A stretch of DNA of 11,046 nucleotides from Bacillota bacterium. Lineage in GTDB: Bacteria > Bacillota > Clostridia > Peptostreptococcales > Anaerovoracaceae. The position numbers were made by a program, and so were the translations under genes. Under the pieces are notes generated by a model. It did not search any database, was not told the origin of the DNA, and saw only the letters and a program-made list of their open reading frames with translations. Within the stretch, counting starts at the first letter, position 1; every line of letters begins with the position of its first letter. Location of the stretch: contig JAFYIC010000132.1 of assembly GCA_017538845.1 (NCBI GenBank), forward strand, positions 1-11,046. Direction: 5' to 3'. Positions 1,085-11,046 of the stretch are shown here, one piece after another.

Positions 1085-1160
1085 TGGCACCCCCGAGATG
1101 ATTCGAACATCCGACGCACGGTTTAGGAAACCGACGCTCTATCCCCTGAGCTACGGGGGC
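1085..1160 (-). tRNA. tRNA-Arg, anticodon CCT
   Basis: A 76-nt cloverleaf on the minus strand. The acceptor stem is GCCCCCG with CGGGGGT (again G1-U72), the D-stem GCTC/GAGC, the anticodon stem TCGGT/ACCGT with loop TTCCTAA, the variable loop GCGTC, and the T-stem GGATG/CATCT with loop TTCGAAT. The discriminator is G and CCA is encoded (plus 1085-1087). Anticodon CCT (plus 1125-1127) reads AGG, a codon used often in this window's genes. The outermost anticodon-stem pair (27-43) is a T-T mismatch. Acceptor stem, D-arm and promoter match the neighbouring tRNA-Arg(CCG), pointing to an old tandem duplication. Confidence 0.97.
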
Positions 1161-3131: not shown

Positions 3132-3575
3132 ATGATAGTAATATTACTCAAAGACGTAAAAGGCGCAGGCAAAGCAGGCGAAGTAGTAAAGGTGAGCGAC
3201 GGATACGCCAGGAACATGCTCATACCGAAGGGTTTTGCCAAAGAAGCAACTGAGGGAAATGTCAGGAATCTGGAAAAGCAGAAGGCTATAATGGCTGAGA
3301 AACAGGCTGAAGCAAAAGCAGCCGCGGAAGAACTGGCAGATAAAATCAGTCTGATCGCAGTGGATATCAAAAGCAAAGGCGGCGAAGGCGGAAGGCTTTT
3401 CGGCTCCATAACATCGAAGGATATATCAGAAGCTCTTGAAGAGCAGCACGGTATAAAGATTGACAAGAAAAAGATCGTACTGGACGCGCCGATCAAACAG
3501 GTCGGTGATACGGAAGTGACCGTCAAGGTCTATCCGGAAGTGCAGGCTCAGCTGAAGGTGTCGGTCACAGTCTGA
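3132..3575 (+). CDS. rplI: 50S ribosomal protein L9
   Basis: A 147-residue protein, the standard L9 length, which binds 23S rRNA near the L1 stalk base of the large subunit. The N-terminal rRNA-binding domain (1-52) is canonical: [19 protein letters not shown], then the [15 protein letters not shown] block (22-36). A long connecting helix rich in Ala, Glu and Lys (about 41-75) follows. The C-terminal domain (about 77-147) has [12 protein letters not shown] and ends in beta strands. AGGAGG (3119-3124) inside the end of gdpP lies 7 bases before the ATG, and only two bases separate the gdpP stop from this start, so the genes are co-transcribed. Placement between gdpP and dnaB is the conserved Firmicutes order. 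Confidence 0.98.
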
Positions 3576-3675: not shown

Positions 3676-5001
3676 ATGGAAGAAAGAATCCCTCCGCAGA
3701 ATCTGGACGCGGAAAAATCAGTGCTAGGAGCAGCGATGCTCAGCAAAGATGCTCTCATGGACGTTGTGGAAGTCGTAAGACCTGATGATTTTTACAACAA
3801 TAACAACAGAGAGATATTCAGCGCCATATGCAAACTGAATCAGGAAGGTTCCCCGGTAGATACCATAACAGTTTCCGAGGAACTTAAGAGAAGAGCCGTG
3901 CTGGATTCGGTGGGCGGCCGTGTTTACGTGGCTTCCCTGGCGGCAGATGTGCCTTCCACATCCAATGCGGTTGAATACGCCCGTATCATAGCGGAGAAAG
4001 CCACACTGAGAAGGCTCATAGAAAAAGGCGGGCAGATATCGGAAAAGGCTTTTGATTCCGATGCTTCGGCCGGAGAAGTCCTGGAATTCGCGGAAAAAGA
4101 GATCTTTGATATCGGACAGAGACGTCAGAGGAAAGACTTTGTCCACATAAAAGACGTCCTCGTGGATAATATCGAAGCTATCGACAAAGCTTCCCAGATA
4201 GAAGGGAACCTGATAGGGATCACAACGGGTTTCAAGGACCTGGATGACAAGACCACAGGCCTTCAGAACGGCAATATGGTCGTTGTTGCGGCCCGCCCCG
4301 GTATGGGAAAGACCGCATTCGCGCTCAGCATCGCTCAGGCAGCGGCAATAAAAGGCAAAGGCACCGTGCTCATATTCAGCATGGAGATGACCAGAAACGA
4401 CTTGGGCCAGAGACTTCTTTCCATGGATTCCAAAGTCGATCTACAGAAGATCAAGACCGGAGATCTGGAGAGGAGAGACTGGGATCAGATAAATCTGGCT
4501 CTTGATGAACTGTCTCAGGCGGATATAAACATAGACGATTCGTCCAGGACCATGGTGGAGATACGTAACAAGTGCAGGAGGCTTAAAGCCGCGAGAGGTC
4601 TGGATCTGGTGATCGTCGACTATCTGCAGCTGATGAATTTCGAAGGCCGTTCGGAAGGCAGACAGCAGGAGATCACGACCATATCCAGATATATGAAGCA
4701 GCTGGCCATGGAGATGGAATGTCCGGTAATGGCGCTGTCACAGCTTTCGAGAAAACCAGAAGAACGTCCGAACCACAGACCGCTCCTTTCCGATTTGCGT
4801 GAATCCGGCGCCATAGAACAGGACGCCGACCTGGTACTGTTCCTTTACAGGGATGATTTTTACAACGGGGAAAACAGCGAGAGACCCGGCGAGTGCGAAG
4901 TAATCATATCAAAGAACAGAAGCGGTCCGGTGGGAACGGTATACGTTACATGGATCGGTAAATACACTAAATTTGCAGATAAAAGCGGTTATTCCAAATA
5001 G
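3676..5001 (+). CDS. dnaB: Replicative DNA helicase DnaB
   Basis: A 441-residue hexameric replicative helicase (DnaB; called DnaC in Bacillus subtilis), the usual family length. The N-terminal domain (about 1-150) begins with the canonical RIPPQNLDAEKSVLGAAM, which binds primase and sets up the collar. The C-terminal RecA-type motor (about 175-441) has Walker A ARPGMGKT (206-213), catalytic Glu in SMEM (E237), Walker B VIVDYLQLM (312-320, D315), the SQLSRKPEERPNHRPLLSDLRESGAIEQ-type block (355-382) and the KNR motif (413-415) that supplies the trans-acting finger residues. AGAAGGAG (3656-3663) is the likely ribosome site; its 12-base spacing to the ATG is long. The gene lies 100 bases after rplI and 23 bases before the DUF1858 gene in the same operon. 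Confidence 0.98.
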   Translation: MEERIPPQNLDAEKSVLGAAMLSKDALMDVVEVVRPDDFYNNNNREIFSAICKLNQEGSPVDTITVSEELKRRAVLDSVGGRVYVASLAADVPSTSNAVEYARIIAEKATLRRLIEKGGQISEKAFDSDASAGEVLEFAEKEIFDIGQRRQRKDFVHIKDVLVDNIEAIDKASQIEGNLIGITTGFKDLDDKTTGLQNGNMVVVAARPGMGKTAFALSIAQAAAIKGKGTVLIFSMEMTRNDLGQRLLSMDSKVDLQKIKTGDLERRDWDQINLALDELSQADINIDDSSRTMVEIRNKCRRLKAARGLDLVIVDYLQLMNFEGRSEGRQQEITTISRYMKQLAMEMECPVMALSQLSRKPEERPNHRPLLSDLRESGAIEQDADLVLFLYRDDFYNGENSERPGECEVIISKNRSGPVGTVYVTWIGKYTKFADKSGYSK

Positions 5002-5024: not shown

Positions 5025-5222
5025 ATGAGTGAGATCACAAAAGATACGATGGTATGCGATATCGTTGCGATCAGCACCGAAATGGAAAAAGTCCTCGTAT
5101 CCTATGGTCTGAGCTGCTGCGGCTGTCCGGGGGCCAACGTAGAGACCCTTGAGCAGGCGGCGGAAGGACACGGTGTGGATCTTGGGGCTCTGTTGGCCGA
5201 TCTGAACAGCAAACTGAAGTAA
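5025..5222 (+). CDS. DUF1858 / hybrid-cluster-protein-associated redox disulfide domain protein
   Basis: A 65-residue stand-alone protein of the DUF1858 type, a short helical domain also described as a hybrid-cluster-protein-associated redox disulfide domain and related to the N-terminal part of ScdA/RIC iron-sulfur repair proteins. The diagnostic pattern is MxITKDxxVxDIV, then VLVSYGLSCCGCPGA (23-37) and ETLEQAAEGHGVDLGALLADLN. Cysteines lie at 11, 31, 32 and 34. The usual family motif is HCxGCP, so C31 and C34 are the conserved pair and C32 is extra. No partner hybrid cluster protein is encoded here. It sits 23 bases after dnaB and 25 bases before the DnaD-family gene, within the operon. 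A redox-sensing or thiol-exchange role is inferred from the family; a role in replication is unproven. Confidence 0.88.
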   Translation: MSEITKDTMVCDIVAISTEMEKVLVSYGLSCCGCPGANVETLEQAAEGHGVDLGALLADLNSKLK

Positions 5223-5247: not shown

Positions 5248-6492
5248 ATGAACAACAGGAGAAAAACTACAAAAGAATACTATCTCTTTGACACGAACGT
5301 GGAGAACATGTTCATCAACGAGTATATGCCCAATGCGCCGGGAGATTACGTCAAGGTGTATCTCTTTGCGTTGATGTATGCGGATCTGGATCAGCCTATG
5401 ACTGACGAGATGCTTGCCAAGGAACTGGGCATGCAGGAGGAAGACGTGCGGGAAGCATGGGACTACTGGGAGGAACTGAAGGTGATCCACAGGACGGCTT
5501 ACGGTGAAGAAGGCGTCCGTATCGAGTTCCTCAGCCTCAAAGAGCAGTTCTACGGCAAGAGCAACAGAAACGGTGGCGATGACGTGGAAGGGGCAATGCC
5601 TGTTCCGCCTGACGGCGTATATTCACAGGACGATCTGAAAAGCATGTTCGAATATCTCGAAAAAGTTGCGGGCAAAGCCTTCAGCGGCACCGAGATAATC
5701 GAGATACTCAACTGGGTCAATGAAACGGGAGCGGCGCCGGAAGTGGTAATGTATGCTTACCGGTACTGCTATTCGAAAAAGAAGACTAGCATAAAGTATA
5801 TAGCCACGGTAGTTCAGCAATGGACAGAGAAGGGCCTGCGCGACGTGGAGGCGGTGGATGATTATCTGGCGGATACCGATCAGAGGAGATATCAGTACAG
5901 GCGGATATTCAGAGCCCTGGGCTTCATAGGAAGAGCTCCCACGGAGGAGGAGATGCGTAGGATGGACAGCTGGTTTGACGAAATGGGCTTTACCATAGAC
6001 AAGGTTCTTGACGCTTGCAGTAAGACCAGCGGTATATCCAATCCGAACATCAACTACGTGGATTCAGTTCTTAAGAACTGGAAGAAGGAAGCGGACCAGC
6101 CGGGCAGCCGATCTGCGGCAGCCGTAGGCAAATACTATGAATATATAAGGGAAGAAGCGGAAAAAGACGCGGAGAAACGTCGCAGGGAAGTTCTGAAGAA
6201 ACTCCCGCGGATACAGGAGATCGATGACGAACTCAACGAACTGAGCCGCGAGGCCACGAAGCTGATACTTTCCGGGTCGGACGCCAAGAAGGGCGCTCTA
6301 GACGCCAGGGTCAACGGGCTGCTGGAGGAAAGAGCCGTGCTCATGACGGACAACGGATTCCCGATGGACTATATGGATGTGAAATATCAGTGTGACAAGT
6401 GCAGGGATACCGGATTCACGGACACCGGTGAAAGGTGCAGCTGCTACGAAGAACGGGCGCGTGAAGCGGCAGTTTGGGAAAGCAAGTCCTAG
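5248..6492 (+). CDS. DnaD-family replication protein with a C-terminal DnaC-type zinc module
   Basis: A 414-residue protein acting in replication initiation or helicase loading. The N-terminal winged-helix region (about 10-100) contains VENMFINEYMPNAPGDYVKVYLFALM, the usual start of clostridial DnaD proteins. Two DnaD (DnaB_2) domains follow, each ending in the YxxxIxxxW-type motif: Y184-V188-W192 and Y270-V274-W278. From about 295 a charged coiled-coil-like stretch (KRRREVLKKLPRIQEIDDEL) leads into NGFPMDYMDVKYQCDKCRDTGF and a cysteine set C382-x2-C385-x11-C397-x-C399. That arrangement resembles the N-terminal helicase-binding zinc region of clostridial DnaC/DnaI loaders, but the protein stops where the AAA+ ATPase would begin. 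ATG 5248 has only a weak upstream ribosome site, so coupling to the previous gene is likely. Clostridial DnaD proteins normally lack the cysteine module. Confidence 0.9.
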   Translation: MNNRRKTTKEYYLFDTNVENMFINEYMPNAPGDYVKVYLFALMYADLDQPMTDEMLAKELGMQEEDVREAWDYWEELKVIHRTAYGEEGVRIEFLSLKEQFYGKSNRNGGDDVEGAMPVPPDGVYSQDDLKSMFEYLEKVAGKAFSGTEIIEILNWVNETGAAPEVVMYAYRYCYSKKKTSIKYIATVVQQWTEKGLRDVEAVDDYLADTDQRRYQYRRIFRALGFIGRAPTEEEMRRMDSWFDEMGFTIDKVLDACSKTSGISNPNINYVDSVLKNWKKEADQPGSRSAAAVGKYYEYIREEAEKDAEKRRREVLKKLPRIQEIDDELNELSREATKLILSGSDAKKGALDARVNGLLEERAVLMTDNGFPMDYMDVKYQCDKCRDTGFTDTGERCSCYEERAREAAVWESKS

Positions 6493-6516: not shown

Positions 6517-6605
6517 AAAGAGCGGTAATACCGTGCTGATTGGCTGCCTCCGCAGGCGAAGCCGAGGACCGCAGTCAGTCAGTATGGTATTACCGCTCTT
6601 TTTTA
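6517..6605. terminator. Long structured bidirectional terminator between convergent genes
   Basis: A perfect 16-bp outer stem pairs AAAGAGCGGTAATACC (6517-6532) with GGTATTACCGCTCTTT (6586-6601), followed by a T-run to 6604. The 53-base loop is itself paired: CTGATT with AGTCAG (one G-U), GGCT with AGCC, and a GCCT-CCGC-AGGC hairpin. It terminates the gdpP operon on plus and, through the A-rich other end, probably the flavodiiron gene on minus. The large structured loop is unusual for a simple terminator. Confidence 0.85.
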
Positions 6606-6629: not shown

Positions 6630-9179
6630 CTAGATCTTGCTTACCAGTTCCTCTATCGGAAGTTTCTTCTCGTATGCTTTGAGCAGTTCTGCTGAGGCGG
6701 TCACGTCACCCATAAGGATGCCGCCGCAGAACCTTCCGTTGAGGAAGTAGAGTTTCTTGTATATCTTCTTGGCGTTGTCGCTCAGTTCCAGAGTCTTGTA
6801 GACCTGATCCTTCTTGCCGCCGTTATCGCCTATAGCGAAGAGGGAAAGTCCGAATCCTGTGAATGCGTTGGACGGTGTGACAGGTGTGTATTCAACTTCG
6901 TCACCTGCCGCGTTAGCTCCCGCAACAGCACCCATTTCCAGAGCCTGATTGTAGATGCCTACGCTTACGCCGTTTACTGCGGCGCAGTCTCCGCATGCGA
7001 ATACGTCAGCCGCGCTGGTTCTCATTCCGCTGTCCACTTCGATGAACCTGTCCACTTCGATGCCTGCCGCCGCGGCAAGTTCAGTGTTGGGTTTGTTTCC
7101 TGCGGAAACGATGATCATCTGCGCAGGATATACTTTTCCGTCCTTAGTCTTTACGCCTGTGACGGAATCGCCGCCTTCGAAGCACTCTACGGAAGCCTCA
7201 GTTACGAGGGTAGAGCCGCTTTCGTTTACGGCTGCCAGCAGTTTCATTGAGCCCGGGCCGTCAAGCTGCTTCTTCATGGGGCCTGTGCCTCTGTCCAGTA
7301 TGGTCACGTTCTTTCCCGCACGGTTAAGTTCCCATGCGGCTTCCAGACCGAGGACGCCTGCGCCGACAACGACTACGTCCTGTACGGAATCCAGGTTTTC
7401 TCTTATAGCGTTTGCATCGGAAAGTTTCCTTATAACGAATACGCCTTCTTTATCGTTGCCCGGAGTAGGTGGCATGTTGCACTCCGCGCCGGATGCGATT
7501 ATGAGTTTGTCATATTTTCTTTCTTCACCGTTGTCAAGGGTAAGATTCTTGGACTGTGTGTCTATGGCTGTTACTTCCGTATCAAGAGTAAGCCTTATCT
7601 TGTTTTCCTGATACCATTCAAGCTGTTTGCTGAAGAAACTGAGAGCATCGAATTCCGACAGAAGTCCCTTTGTCAGCTGTGGTCTGTTGTAGCAGAATAC
7701 CGGCTCGTTGGAGATTATCTCTACAGGAGCAAGAACGTTTCTCTTTCTGATGGCTTCTGCCGCGGAAAGTCCCGCGATGCCGCCGCCAATGATCACGATG
7801 CTGTCCGTGTTCTGTGAAACGAATTCTATTTCCTTGTCTTCTACCGCAACGAACTGCTCAGGACCTACGCCGCATACCGGACATGATTCCGGAGGCTTCG
7901 GTCCCTCGATGATCTCGCCGCAGACAAGACATTTCCACTTGCCGCTTCCCGCAGGAGCCGTTTCCGGTTCAACGATCTTTCCTTCCAGTACGGAAAGGCC
8001 GAAGTTGTATCCGAATTCATAGGCTTCCTGAAGCTGCGCCGGTGACGGCTTGAAGCGTATTCTCAAGCCTTCTCCGAAGACCTGCATCTTCAGCTGGCGC
8101 AGTCTTTCGATTATGTGGGGAACGCCTTCGCCGCTCCAGCCGTATGAACCGAAAGCGGATGCGATCTTCTTTCCGTGGGTGCCGGCGAACATGCCTATGG
8201 TCAGGTTCCAGATAGGCTCCAGAGCTTCTCCCAGAATGGTCGGTGTTCCAAGCAGTATGCCGTCTGCCCAGTAGAGTTCGCCCCTGACTTCCGCTTCATC
8301 GGAATATACCATATCGTAAAGCTTCACGTCGATATCGCCGGAAGCCTTGATACCTTCTGTGATCTTGTCGGCCAGTTCTTCCGTGTAGCCGTAAGCCGAA
8401 ACGTAAGGAACGACAACTGTCTTTTTCTCATTGGGGTTTACTTCCGTGGACCACTGTCTGCATATCTCGACGATCTTCCACGGATCATCATCCAGTACGG
8501 GACCGTGTCCCGGGCATATCATGTCGATGTCCAGATCTTTGATCTTCTGTATTCCGGAAAGGAGGTAACTCTTGAAAGGTCCGAGGATATTGTCAAAGTA
8601 ATATTTCAGAGCCCGCATGTAGCCTTCCTCGTCGGTGACCTTTGAATGGAGTATCCCGTCAAAGCTGTAGTGGGATCCGAAGGAATCGCATGTGATGAGC
8701 GTCTTGTCCTCTTCCACGTATGTGTACATGGTGTCCGGCCAGTGAAGATTAGGCGCGGTTATGAAACGGAGAGTCTTGTCACCAAGCGAAAGAGTGTCCC
8801 CGTTCTTTACGACTATGGATACGAAATCCGTGTTGGTGATCTCTTTGATGAACTTGATGGCTGTGGCTGTACCCACCAGTTTGATCCCCGGGTTCATCTC
8901 GATCAGTTTCACCGCTGAACCCGCGTGATCCGGCTCGGTATGGTTCACGATTATATAGTCTATGTCTTTGATGTCCGAAAGGGATTGGAGACTGTCGATA
9001 TACTGATCCATGAATTTGGCTTTGGCTGTCTCGAATATGGCGGTTTTCTCGCTTCCTTTCAGCATGTAGGAGTTGTACGTGGTGCCGAATTCAGTGTGCA
9101 TGATTATATCGAACACATCCAGGTCCGGGTCCAGTACTCCCGTCCAGTAAAAGTTCTGTTTCAGTTCCAGAGTTTTCAT
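6630..9179 (-). CDS. Class F flavodiiron protein (FDP-rubredoxin-NADH:rubredoxin oxidoreductase fusion)
   Basis: An 849-residue cytosolic enzyme that should reduce O2 (possibly NO) using NADH through a built-in electron chain. The metallo-beta-lactamase domain (1-250) has the complete diiron set H80-x-E82-x-D84-H85, H146, D165 and H225. The flavodoxin FMN domain (about 254-400) shows VPYVSAYGYTEELAD, LGTPTI and FGSYGWSGEG. A rubredoxin (413-448) binds iron by C417-x2-C420 and C433-x2-C436 with only 12 residues between the pairs, the short-spacer form. The C-terminal NADH:rubredoxin oxidoreductase (about 459-849) has FAD-binding IIGGGIAG (463-470), NAD-binding VVGAGVLG (604-611) and VFACGDCA (726-733). 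This order is that of class F enzymes such as the characterised Clostridioides difficile NADH:O2 oxidoreductase. AAGGAGG lies 7 bases before the start. It follows rpsR in the same direction after a terminator. Confidence 0.96.
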   Translation of the reverse strand: MKTLELKQNFYWTGVLDPDLDVFDIIMHTEFGTTYNSYMLKGSEKTAIFETAKAKFMDQYIDSLQSLSDIKDIDYIIVNHTEPDHAGSAVKLIEMNPGIKLVGTATAIKFIKEITNTDFVSIVVKNGDTLSLGDKTLRFITAPNLHWPDTMYTYVEEDKTLITCDSFGSHYSFDGILHSKVTDEEGYMRALKYYFDNILGPFKSYLLSGIQKIKDLDIDMICPGHGPVLDDDPWKIVEICRQWSTEVNPNEKKTVVVPYVSAYGYTEELADKITEGIKASGDIDVKLYDMVYSDEAEVRGELYWADGILLGTPTILGEALEPIWNLTIGMFAGTHGKKIASAFGSYGWSGEGVPHIIERLRQLKMQVFGEGLRIRFKPSPAQLQEAYEFGYNFGLSVLEGKIVEPETAPAGSGKWKCLVCGEIIEGPKPPESCPVCGVGPEQFVAVEDKEIEFVSQNTDSIVIIGGGIAGLSAAEAIRKRNVLAPVEIISNEPVFCYNRPQLTKGLLSEFDALSFFSKQLEWYQENKIRLTLDTEVTAIDTQSKNLTLDNGEERKYDKLIIASGAECNMPPTPGNDKEGVFVIRKLSDANAIRENLDSVQDVVVVGAGVLGLEAAWELNRAGKNVTILDRGTGPMKKQLDGPGSMKLLAAVNESGSTLVTEASVECFEGGDSVTGVKTKDGKVYPAQMIIVSAGNKPNTELAAAAGIEVDRFIEVDSGMRTSAADVFACGDCAAVNGVSVGIYNQALEMGAVAGANAAGDEVEYTPVTPSNAFTGFGLSLFAIGDNGGKKDQVYKTLELSDNAKKIYKKLYFLNGRFCGGILMGDVTASAELLKAYEKKLPIEELVSKI

Positions 9180-10474: not shown

Positions 10475-11046
10475 TTATTTCCACAGTTTTTCCGGGTAGA
10501 GGCCCTTATCCTTCATGGACTGGAGGGCAGAGACCACATCATCGCGGTCCTCTTTGTATGTCACTCCGTACCATTTATCTTTGGAAGAGAGCACTTTTAC
10601 CGTGGCTTTTCCTTCTTTGATCAGAATGTCGGGTATGCTTGGCAGGAAGTACTCTCCCTTAAGAGGATCCTCTGCCAGAGCTTTGTCGAGAAACGCCGGG
10701 AACCTTGCCACCATCTCATCCATCAGGCTCTTTGTGAAGCCCCAGAAGTTCATGGAAACTATGGTGTCTTTCGCAAGAGGCGACCAGGTCTCGCCCTTGT
10801 CTTCGCTGAAGCATATCTCGTCTCCCCGCGGCATTATCATTGTGCGCTCTGTGATCCCTGTTAGAAATCCTTCATCGTCGGTCTCGCACACGCCCCTGGA
10901 AACGTATCCGTTCTCGGTGATTGTCTGAGCAAGATCGAATCCTACCATGGACCAGCGAAATTTATCATCGTCTTCGGCCTTGAGCAGCTCTTCGTAGATC
11001 AGCTGAAACGCCTCGTGACCGTAATAATCGTCTGCGTTTATCACAA
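10475..11046 (-). CDS. Sugar-nucleotide-type nucleotidyltransferase, C-terminal part (5' end outside window)
   Basis: The last 190 or so codons of a gene that continues past the right edge. The fragment starts VINADDYYGHEAF, the conserved metal/substrate block of a clostridial nucleotidyltransferase family related to NTP_transferase sugar-1-phosphate enzymes. In that family the N-terminal GxGxR nucleotide-binding loop would lie about 100 residues upstream, outside the window. Later family features are SMNFWGFTKSLMDEM, GEYFLPSIPDILI and KWYGVTYKEDRDDVVSAL near the C-terminus. It is a cytoplasmic enzyme, likely making an activated sugar or related head group for cell-surface polymers; the substrate is not deducible. 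GTG at 11044 is an internal valine, not the start. The gene ends 35 bases before the rpsF promoter elements and no convincing GC-stem terminator follows it. Confidence 0.85.
   Translation of the reverse strand, partial: VINADDYYGHEAFQLIYEELLKAEDDDKFRWSMVGFDLAQTITENGYVSRGVCETDDEGFLTGITERTMIMPRGDEICFSEDKGETWSPLAKDTIVSMNFWGFTKSLMDEMVARFPAFLDKALAEDPLKGEYFLPSIPDILIKEGKATVKVLSSKDKWYGVTYKEDRDDVVSALQSMKDKGLYPEKLWK

Follow-up and report, generated by a model that had tools for sequence, protein, structure and literature searches.

In the Anaerovoracaceae, a family of gut and sediment bacteria, DnaD carries at its C-terminus a domain homologous to the N-terminal part of a clostridial helicase loader, and the AAA+ motor of that loader is missing. 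These bacteria probably load the helicase ring without the usual motor. The finding is larger than the first-pass annotation of this DNA had stated: it is confirmed as a family-wide, motorless helicase-loader fusion which, judged from sequence comparison, appears to have arisen at least twice in Clostridia, and for which helicase docking and ATP-independent loading are the predicted functions. What is new is the way in which known parts are combined; no new fold is involved.

The window, by which we mean the whole stretch of DNA analysed (11,046 nucleotides), is one entire 11-kb contig of a genome that is 71% complete. The ORF at 5248-6492 of the forward strand encodes a DnaD protein of 414 amino acids with a loader-type tail, and the stretch 6133-6492, to which the first-pass annotation had drawn attention, corresponds to residues 296-414 plus the stop codon. 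The genes rplI, dnaB, a DUF1858 gene and the fusion gene follow one another on one strand (Table 1); the DUF1858 gene lies between dnaB and the fusion gene, with gaps of 23 and 25 nt. On the 3' side an inverted repeat is followed by a convergent multidomain flavodoxin/rubredoxin/oxidoreductase gene.

Table 1. Coordinates of the fusion gene, its parts and its neighbours in the window.
Feature	Position	Strand	Support
rplI (ribosomal protein L9), upstream gene of the cluster	3132..3575	+	PF03948/PF01281
dnaB, replicative helicase, presumed client of the fusion protein	3676..5001	+	PF03796 E 4.4e-101, PF00772 E 1.9e-33
Small DUF1858 protein, 65 aa, between dnaB and dnaD	5025..5222	+	PF08984 E 1.3e-15
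dnaD::dnaC-NTD fusion gene, 414 aa	5248..6492	+	ORF, Pfam, NCBIfam
DnaD N-terminal winged-helix part (DDBH1), residues 1-106	5248..5565	+	
First DnaB_2 (DDBH2) domain, residues 134-206	5647..5865	+	
Second DnaB_2 (DDBH2) domain, about residues 217-283	5896..6096	+	Two Pfam stretches; bounds inferred from the alignment
Tail homologous to the clostridial DnaC N-terminal domain, residues 291-404	6118..6459	+	NF005304 E 3.9e-27
Putative zinc module C382-x2-C385-x11-C397-x-C399	6391..6444	+	Four conserved Cys
Inverted repeat and T-run, probable terminator between convergent genes	6517..6601	.	31-nt arms, 87% complementary, 23 nt apart

Several further features of the window may be recorded. The 65-aa DUF1858 protein (PF08984, 5025-5222) bears the motif SCCGCPG, and small ORFs resembling its gene occur near the helicase gene in many loci of the window's family as well as in loci of other families. 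The convergent gene (6630-9179, reverse strand) encodes 849 amino acids with metallo-beta-lactamase/ODP, flavodoxin, rubredoxin-like and pyridine-nucleotide oxidoreductase parts, and its product resembles a flavodiiron protein and its reductase joined in one chain. Two tRNA-Arg genes with anticodons ccg and cct are located at 869-944 and 1085-1160 (reverse strand), and a 189-aa ORF without Pfam match at E <= 1e-6 (10475-11044, reverse strand) runs to the contig end.

The DnaD nature of the larger part is evident from the presence of the N-terminal winged-helix oligomerisation domain (DDBH1), two stretches of PF07261 (DnaB_2/DDBH2; Pfam, E 6.5e-28) and TIGR01446 (DnaD_dom; NCBIfam, E 3.2e-18). 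The tail contains the motifs RRREVLKKLPRIQEIDDELN, NGFPMDYM and YQCDKCRDTGF quoted in the first-pass annotation, and the codons of C382, C385, C397 and C399 start at 6391, 6400, 6436 and 6442. The likeness of this stretch to the zinc module of a loader, proposed there, is borne out by a profile search: residues 291-404 align with positions 7-122 of the 330 positions of NCBIfam NF005304/PRK06835 (E 3.9e-27), and the tail cut out on its own matches the same profile with E 3.5e-28, which is far beyond chance. The complete fusion protein scores 95.2 bits and does not reach the curated whole-protein cut-off of PRK06835 (215 bits). This family is titled 'ATP-binding protein' and its members adjoin dnaD in the order; we take it to be the clostridial DnaC-type helicase loader, of which CD3654 of Clostridioides difficile is presumably the studied example. 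That the AAA+ motor is missing likewise holds: the match stops at profile position 122 of 330, the ORF ends 10 codons past the last matched residue, no ATPase follows downstream, and ORF, Pfam and NCBIfam scans detect no AAA+ ATPase domain with Walker A/B in the 414 amino acids. The tail is missed by ordinary annotation because no Pfam-A model reaches its cut-off on it and no PDB chain matches it significantly in sequence; homologues, where their source names them, are called 'DnaD domain protein' or 'DnaD/phage-associated'. Neither DciA (PF05258) nor lambda P/DopE (PF06992) is among the Pfam matches of the fusion protein listed up to E 10.

The fusion is not peculiar to the source genome; a survey of relatives reveals it as the standard state of the Anaerovoracaceae. 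A first set of 119 relatives comprised 72 genomes of the window's family (f1), three of a second family (f9) and 44 of other families. DnaD, whole or in part, and the tail share one frame in 67 of the 72 f1 genomes and in all three of f9; one further f1 genome (G042) has them on separate contigs, and in four (G026, G056, G061, G064; 80-89% complete) neither part was found. Full-length DnaC over the cut-off is present in 41 of the 119, all of them within the 44 genomes of other families. An order-wide survey of 322 genomes (at least 90% complete, the window's own genome included as well), in which the six best candidates per genome were scored, yielded full DnaC over the cut-off in 0/166 genomes of f1, 0/3 of f9 and 149/153 of the other families; among f1 genomes of at least 95% completeness, the own genome added, the count is 0/92. 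The four exceptions in other families more likely lack the whole locus than have truly lost the gene, because DnaD is absent as well from three of them (G114, G186 and G194, without any match to the fusion profile) and the fourth (G331) holds only a 79-aa frame. A fusion-profile match is also wanting in G108, G116 and the f1 genomes G026, G056, G061, G064 and G221; the whole locus seems to be missing in such genomes, although a divergent DnaD could be overlooked too.

The other families encode DnaD and the N-terminal part of DnaC in separate genes; dnaD and dnaC are adjacent on the same strand in 29 of the 30 loci compared (the best 30 of the 41 full DnaCs), the thirtieth (L027) being an incomplete locus. 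According to the first-pass annotation, a tail common to all DnaD proteins of the clade would have spoken against its reading. Within the family the tail is indeed standard, but it is absent from the separate DnaD proteins of other families; the reading as a derived fusion stands because those families keep a separate dnaD and a full dnaC. Fusion loci occur in named genomes of, among others, Anaerovorax odorimutans, Emergencia timonensis, Sinanaerobacter and Bacilliculturomica, genera that belong to the Anaerovoracaceae (order Peptostreptococcales), and in the tree Anaerovorax sp. IOR16 adjoins an f1 genome (G156); we infer that f1 is the Anaerovoracaceae. The near relatives of the f9 protein are labelled at most 'Peptostreptococcales bacterium' or 'Clostridia bacterium'. 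In the single-contig genome G131 the fusion gene (L204, 9646-10969) is split over three reading frames, by sequencing error or decay, and G021 and G054 each have one stop codon inside the matched stretch.

How the fusion came about can be followed at a site beside purA, where genes were named by eye from their translations. In G084, a genome of another family (f3), rplI, the helicase gene, DUF1858 and purA are followed by dnaC and dnaD on the other strand. The f9 genome G090 has the same rplI, helicase, DUF1858 and purA, followed by the fusion gene alone on the other strand, and G079 (f9) is arranged like G090, with no DUF1858 gene among the ORFs listed. It is one and the same site, at which the dnaD-dnaC pair has been replaced by a single gene in f9. 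In a tree built from 129 sequences, fusion tails together with N-terminal domains of DnaC, one branch (support 100/93) divides the tails from the DnaCs, and f9 is placed next to f1; the columns are few and many forks are left unresolved. Taken together, sequence, synteny and trees make a convincing case that an adjacent dnaD and dnaC collapsed into one gene, whereby the motor was lost and the N-terminal domain became the C-terminal tail of DnaD.

Frames long enough for a complete dnaD-dnaC fusion, a conceivable intermediate, were also inspected: none of the ten selected (about 680-770 aa; L220-L227, L229 and L230) is a fusion. At nine of these loci a dnaD-like frame is accompanied by its own, unfused dnaC of 323-338 aa, and L225 holds a separate dnaC of 327 aa along with DnaD. 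Long DnaD proteins of 501-635 aa beside a full dnaC were observed in f13, f44, f51 and f62 (L216-L219, L228), the one at L217 having four DnaB_2 stretches. In a further family, f45 (e.g. G398, G420 and G473), DnaD does not match at E <= 1e-5 in 11 of 19 genomes (up to four best candidates scored in each), and the remaining eight give weak matches, 4.0e-11 at best; DnaD of this family appears to be either very divergent or lost.

A second fusion lineage was found in a separate order of Clostridia. Of seven genomes, at least 85% complete, from one family (f42) in the order of G407, six carry the loader N-terminal domain inside DnaD frames of 408-458 aa and none has a full DnaC; the seventh (G719) shows neither the DnaD part nor the DnaC N-terminal part. 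The protein of G407 ends 11 residues past the zinc motif, and near relatives of the f42 protein are labelled 'Clostridia bacterium'. The DnaD tree joins f42 (100/100) to G510, a genome of family f59 with separate dnaD and full dnaC, and the branch leading to the pair is long (1.83). Holding all fusions together is rejected by this tree (log-likelihood lower by 99, p-AU 0.0009). The shorter tree of N-terminal domains also separates f42 from the other fusions, and there a single clade is not rejected (p-AU 0.371). Since a single origin is rejected on DnaD, the better reading of these phylogenies is that dnaD and dnaC collapsed independently at least twice, in separate orders of Clostridia. Further fusion lineages beyond f1, f9 and f42 may exist, and the genome survey gives an at-least count.

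What would such a protein do? We consider it probable, from its composition and distribution, that the fusion is the chromosomal helicase loader of the Anaerovoracaceae, derived from the dnaD-dnaC collapse and working without ATP hydrolysis by the loader. In Bacillus subtilis the factors are recruited in the order DnaA, DnaD, DnaB, DnaI, helicase (PMC13326638), and DnaD is described as a tetramer that contacts DnaA and binds single-stranded DNA (PMC10201434), while C. difficile is reported to lack the co-loader DnaB and to have a three-domain DnaD gene adjoining the loader gene (PMC5204125, PMC12548448). By analogy, DnaA at the unwound origin would recruit the DnaD part of the fusion, single-stranded DNA would be handled by DnaD's own DNA-binding region, and the tails of the DnaD oligomer would bind the DnaB helicase at its C-terminal face; the helicase would then be handed to the DNA without ATP hydrolysis by the loader, and its release may be brought about by primase or by entry of single-stranded DNA. 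The chain from DnaA over DnaD and loader to helicase would thus be shortened to DnaA, DnaD::NTD and helicase, with a division of labour in which DnaD provides origin and DNA contact and the tail provides the grip on the helicase. Published accounts of loaders make such a shortcut conceivable: the zinc-bearing N-terminal domains of DnaI are credited with about 1197 square angstrom of helicase contact and its AAA+ domains with about 548 (PMC3791466), helicase binding is reported not to be lost fully in Walker mutants of the C. difficile loader (PMC5204125), and lambda P is described as loading DnaB with no ATP binding or hydrolysis (PMC6391071). Because the eviction of lambda P, according to the same source, requires the host chaperones DnaK/DnaJ/GrpE (PMC6391071), the absence of a loader ATPase may mean that the energy comes from elsewhere.

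Alternatively, the fusion might be an adaptor only, which recruits or positions the helicase and leaves ring opening or assembly to DnaA, to the helicase itself or to another factor. This possibility overlaps with the loader reading and differs from it in the last step only. It would agree with descriptions of the C. difficile and Bacillus helicase systems as ring-makers (PMC5204125, PMC6391071) and of B. subtilis DnaD as a scaffold downstream of DnaA (PMC10201434), as well as with the failure to find a full AAA+ loader in genomes of the family, and nothing speaks directly against it; we nevertheless hold it for distinctly less likely. An ATP-independent adaptor role, as had been suggested in the first-pass annotation, would fit the evidence. 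Returning to the loader reading, the motor has gone from a large family whose order otherwise bears dnaC, while DnaD there has kept the N-terminal domain, and the same has happened in a second order of Clostridia. We regard it as fairly likely, if less so than the loader role itself, that chromosome replication in the Anaerovoracaceae, in a related family and in a separate clostridial order relies on an ATPase-free helicase loader; the AAA+ part of DnaC-type loaders would then be dispensable once the docking domain is tied to the initiator-bound DnaD. The fusions represent a natural deletion experiment on what ATP hydrolysis by the loader serves and on whether docking plus origin recruitment suffices for helicase loading.

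It could be objected that the tail is a relic, a zinc-binding appendage that has lost its helicase binding and has a new role or none. Its conservation makes this improbable. The cysteines C382, C385, C397 and C399, which form a putative zinc-binding module, are invariant in 29/29 aligned fusion proteins (29 of the 30 best-matching loci, L053 with its odd start being excluded), and so are Y380, D387, G389, G394 and P320; the four-Cys pattern recurs in 80/80 loci of named genomes (the best 80 of 308 found). A motif count of 101/101 is circular, its rows having been selected by that motif, and for alignment A3, pre-filtered in the same way, the invariance of Cys, Asp and Gly is partly circular. 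Column conservation in 61 fusion tails vs 18 DnaCs correlates with a Spearman rho of 0.58 over 121 columns (motif-filtered rows). Eight positions conserved in DnaC are free in the fusions: 401, 402, 404 and 405 form the junction to the lost motor and are released as predicted if the motor went and the domain stayed, while 294, 329, 372 and 390 lie inside the domain and argue mildly against full retention of its contacts, which is the point in favour of a relic. The remaining domain retains the constraint pattern of DnaC, and a new role is hardly indicated, because a single position, 374, is conserved in the fusions and not in DnaC. An AF2 model of the tail (pLDDT 95.3) has three long helices, then the Cys stretch and one more helix at the end; compared with PDB folds it has no significant match (best Foldseek E 1.0).

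A separate, divergent AAA+ loader, with the fused tail as its competitor or regulator, is a further candidate explanation, and competition with a separate DnaC had been considered in the first-pass annotation. The single-contig genomes G131, G146 and G156 (97, 99 and 98% complete) speak against it. Among 13 family genomes in which all candidates were scored against PF01695 at E <= 0.01, these three gave 12 matches, namely three DnaA, three PhoH-like proteins, two ClpX, two Lon and two sigma-54 activators, and thus no DnaC-like AAA+ protein. A DnaC would have been detected, because two genuine DnaCs of the order match this model with E 1.9e-14 and 5.3e-12. In the window's own genome (71% complete) there is no PF01695 match, and even DnaA was not detected there. 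Across 92 family genomes PF01695 matches in 91, in 88 of them over its cut-off; it is nearly ubiquitous because the model also picks DnaA (about 450-470 aa) and IstB-like proteins (about 250-270 aa), which were sorted by length only. What favours a separate loader is that DnaC-like AAA+ proteins without a match to the N-terminal domain, their frames measuring about 260-335 aa, are encoded in at least 18 of the 92, and that five copies match 'DnaC-like helicase loader' of PHROGs. The surroundings of six loci were examined, five of them from these genomes (G060, G012, G130, G047 and G032) and the sixth from G071; the PHROGs matches are those of all six but G012. All six look as if they lie among mobile genes: the G060 copy is near a MobQ relaxase and apparent serine recombinases, the G012 copy is near-identical to it over the 70 residues compared, and the other four have prophage-like surroundings, judged by eye. 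The loci of G060 and G012 (L198/L199), from two genera, share this near-identical loader and a similar upstream gene and are probably a mobile element shared within the family. With full-length DnaC in 0/166 family genomes, we regard a separate AAA+ loader as quite improbable. An unrelated loader of another kind in the fusion-bearing genomes is possible; DciA was found in 0/60 family genomes (7/14 control genomes positive) and lambda P in 0/60 (control 1/14).

An assembly error, frameshift or contig end that hides a dnaC running on past the stop might be suspected in a window that is a whole contig of an incomplete genome, but such an artefact is refuted for practical purposes by the similar end point in 29 aligned proteins and in the single-contig genomes G146 and G156, by the convergent gene and inverted repeat directly 3' of the fusion ORF, and by the surroundings of 80 fusion genes, 933,654 bases in all, which contain no homologue of the DnaC AAA+ part.

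Helicase handling without a loader ATPase has precedents. DciA handles DnaB in this way, as the fusion is proposed to do; both DciA and lambda P (DopE) differ from the fusion in their domains, and neither occurs in the 60 family genomes searched. For lambda P the handling of DnaB without a loader ATPase is described in PMC6391071, and on the current view bacteria mostly depend on one of two kinds of loader, DciA or an AAA+ protein that came from phages (DnaC/DnaI) (PMC5109545). Among the open-access full-text papers searched, we recognised no report of a DnaD-DnaC fusion or of the loss of the AAA+ loader in Anaerovoracaceae. Like the tail with its putative zinc module and presumed docking role, the N-terminal domain of the B. 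subtilis loader DnaI is described as bearing zinc and contacting the helicase (PMC3791466). The likeness to DnaC/DnaI that the first-pass annotation had suggested is established as homology for the clostridial DnaC type; as to the Bacillus DnaI domain, the tail gave no Pfam or PDB sequence match and its model no significant fold match. The three-domain clostridial DnaD, represented by CD3653 with its DDBH1-DDBH2-DDBH2 order, shares domain order and helicase gene neighbourhood with the fusion (PMC5204125); the separate DnaDs of the order end with a short tail after the second DDBH2, where the fusion adds the loader domain. The chimera of DnaD and a loader N-terminal domain, backed by profile match, conservation, synteny and trees, is closest to the clostridial DnaC-type loader, which has the same N-terminal domain with CxxC...CxC and whose gene likewise adjoins dnaD, but which bears a C-terminal AAA+ ATPase, whereas the fusion is without this motor and carries the domain at the C-terminus of DnaD instead.
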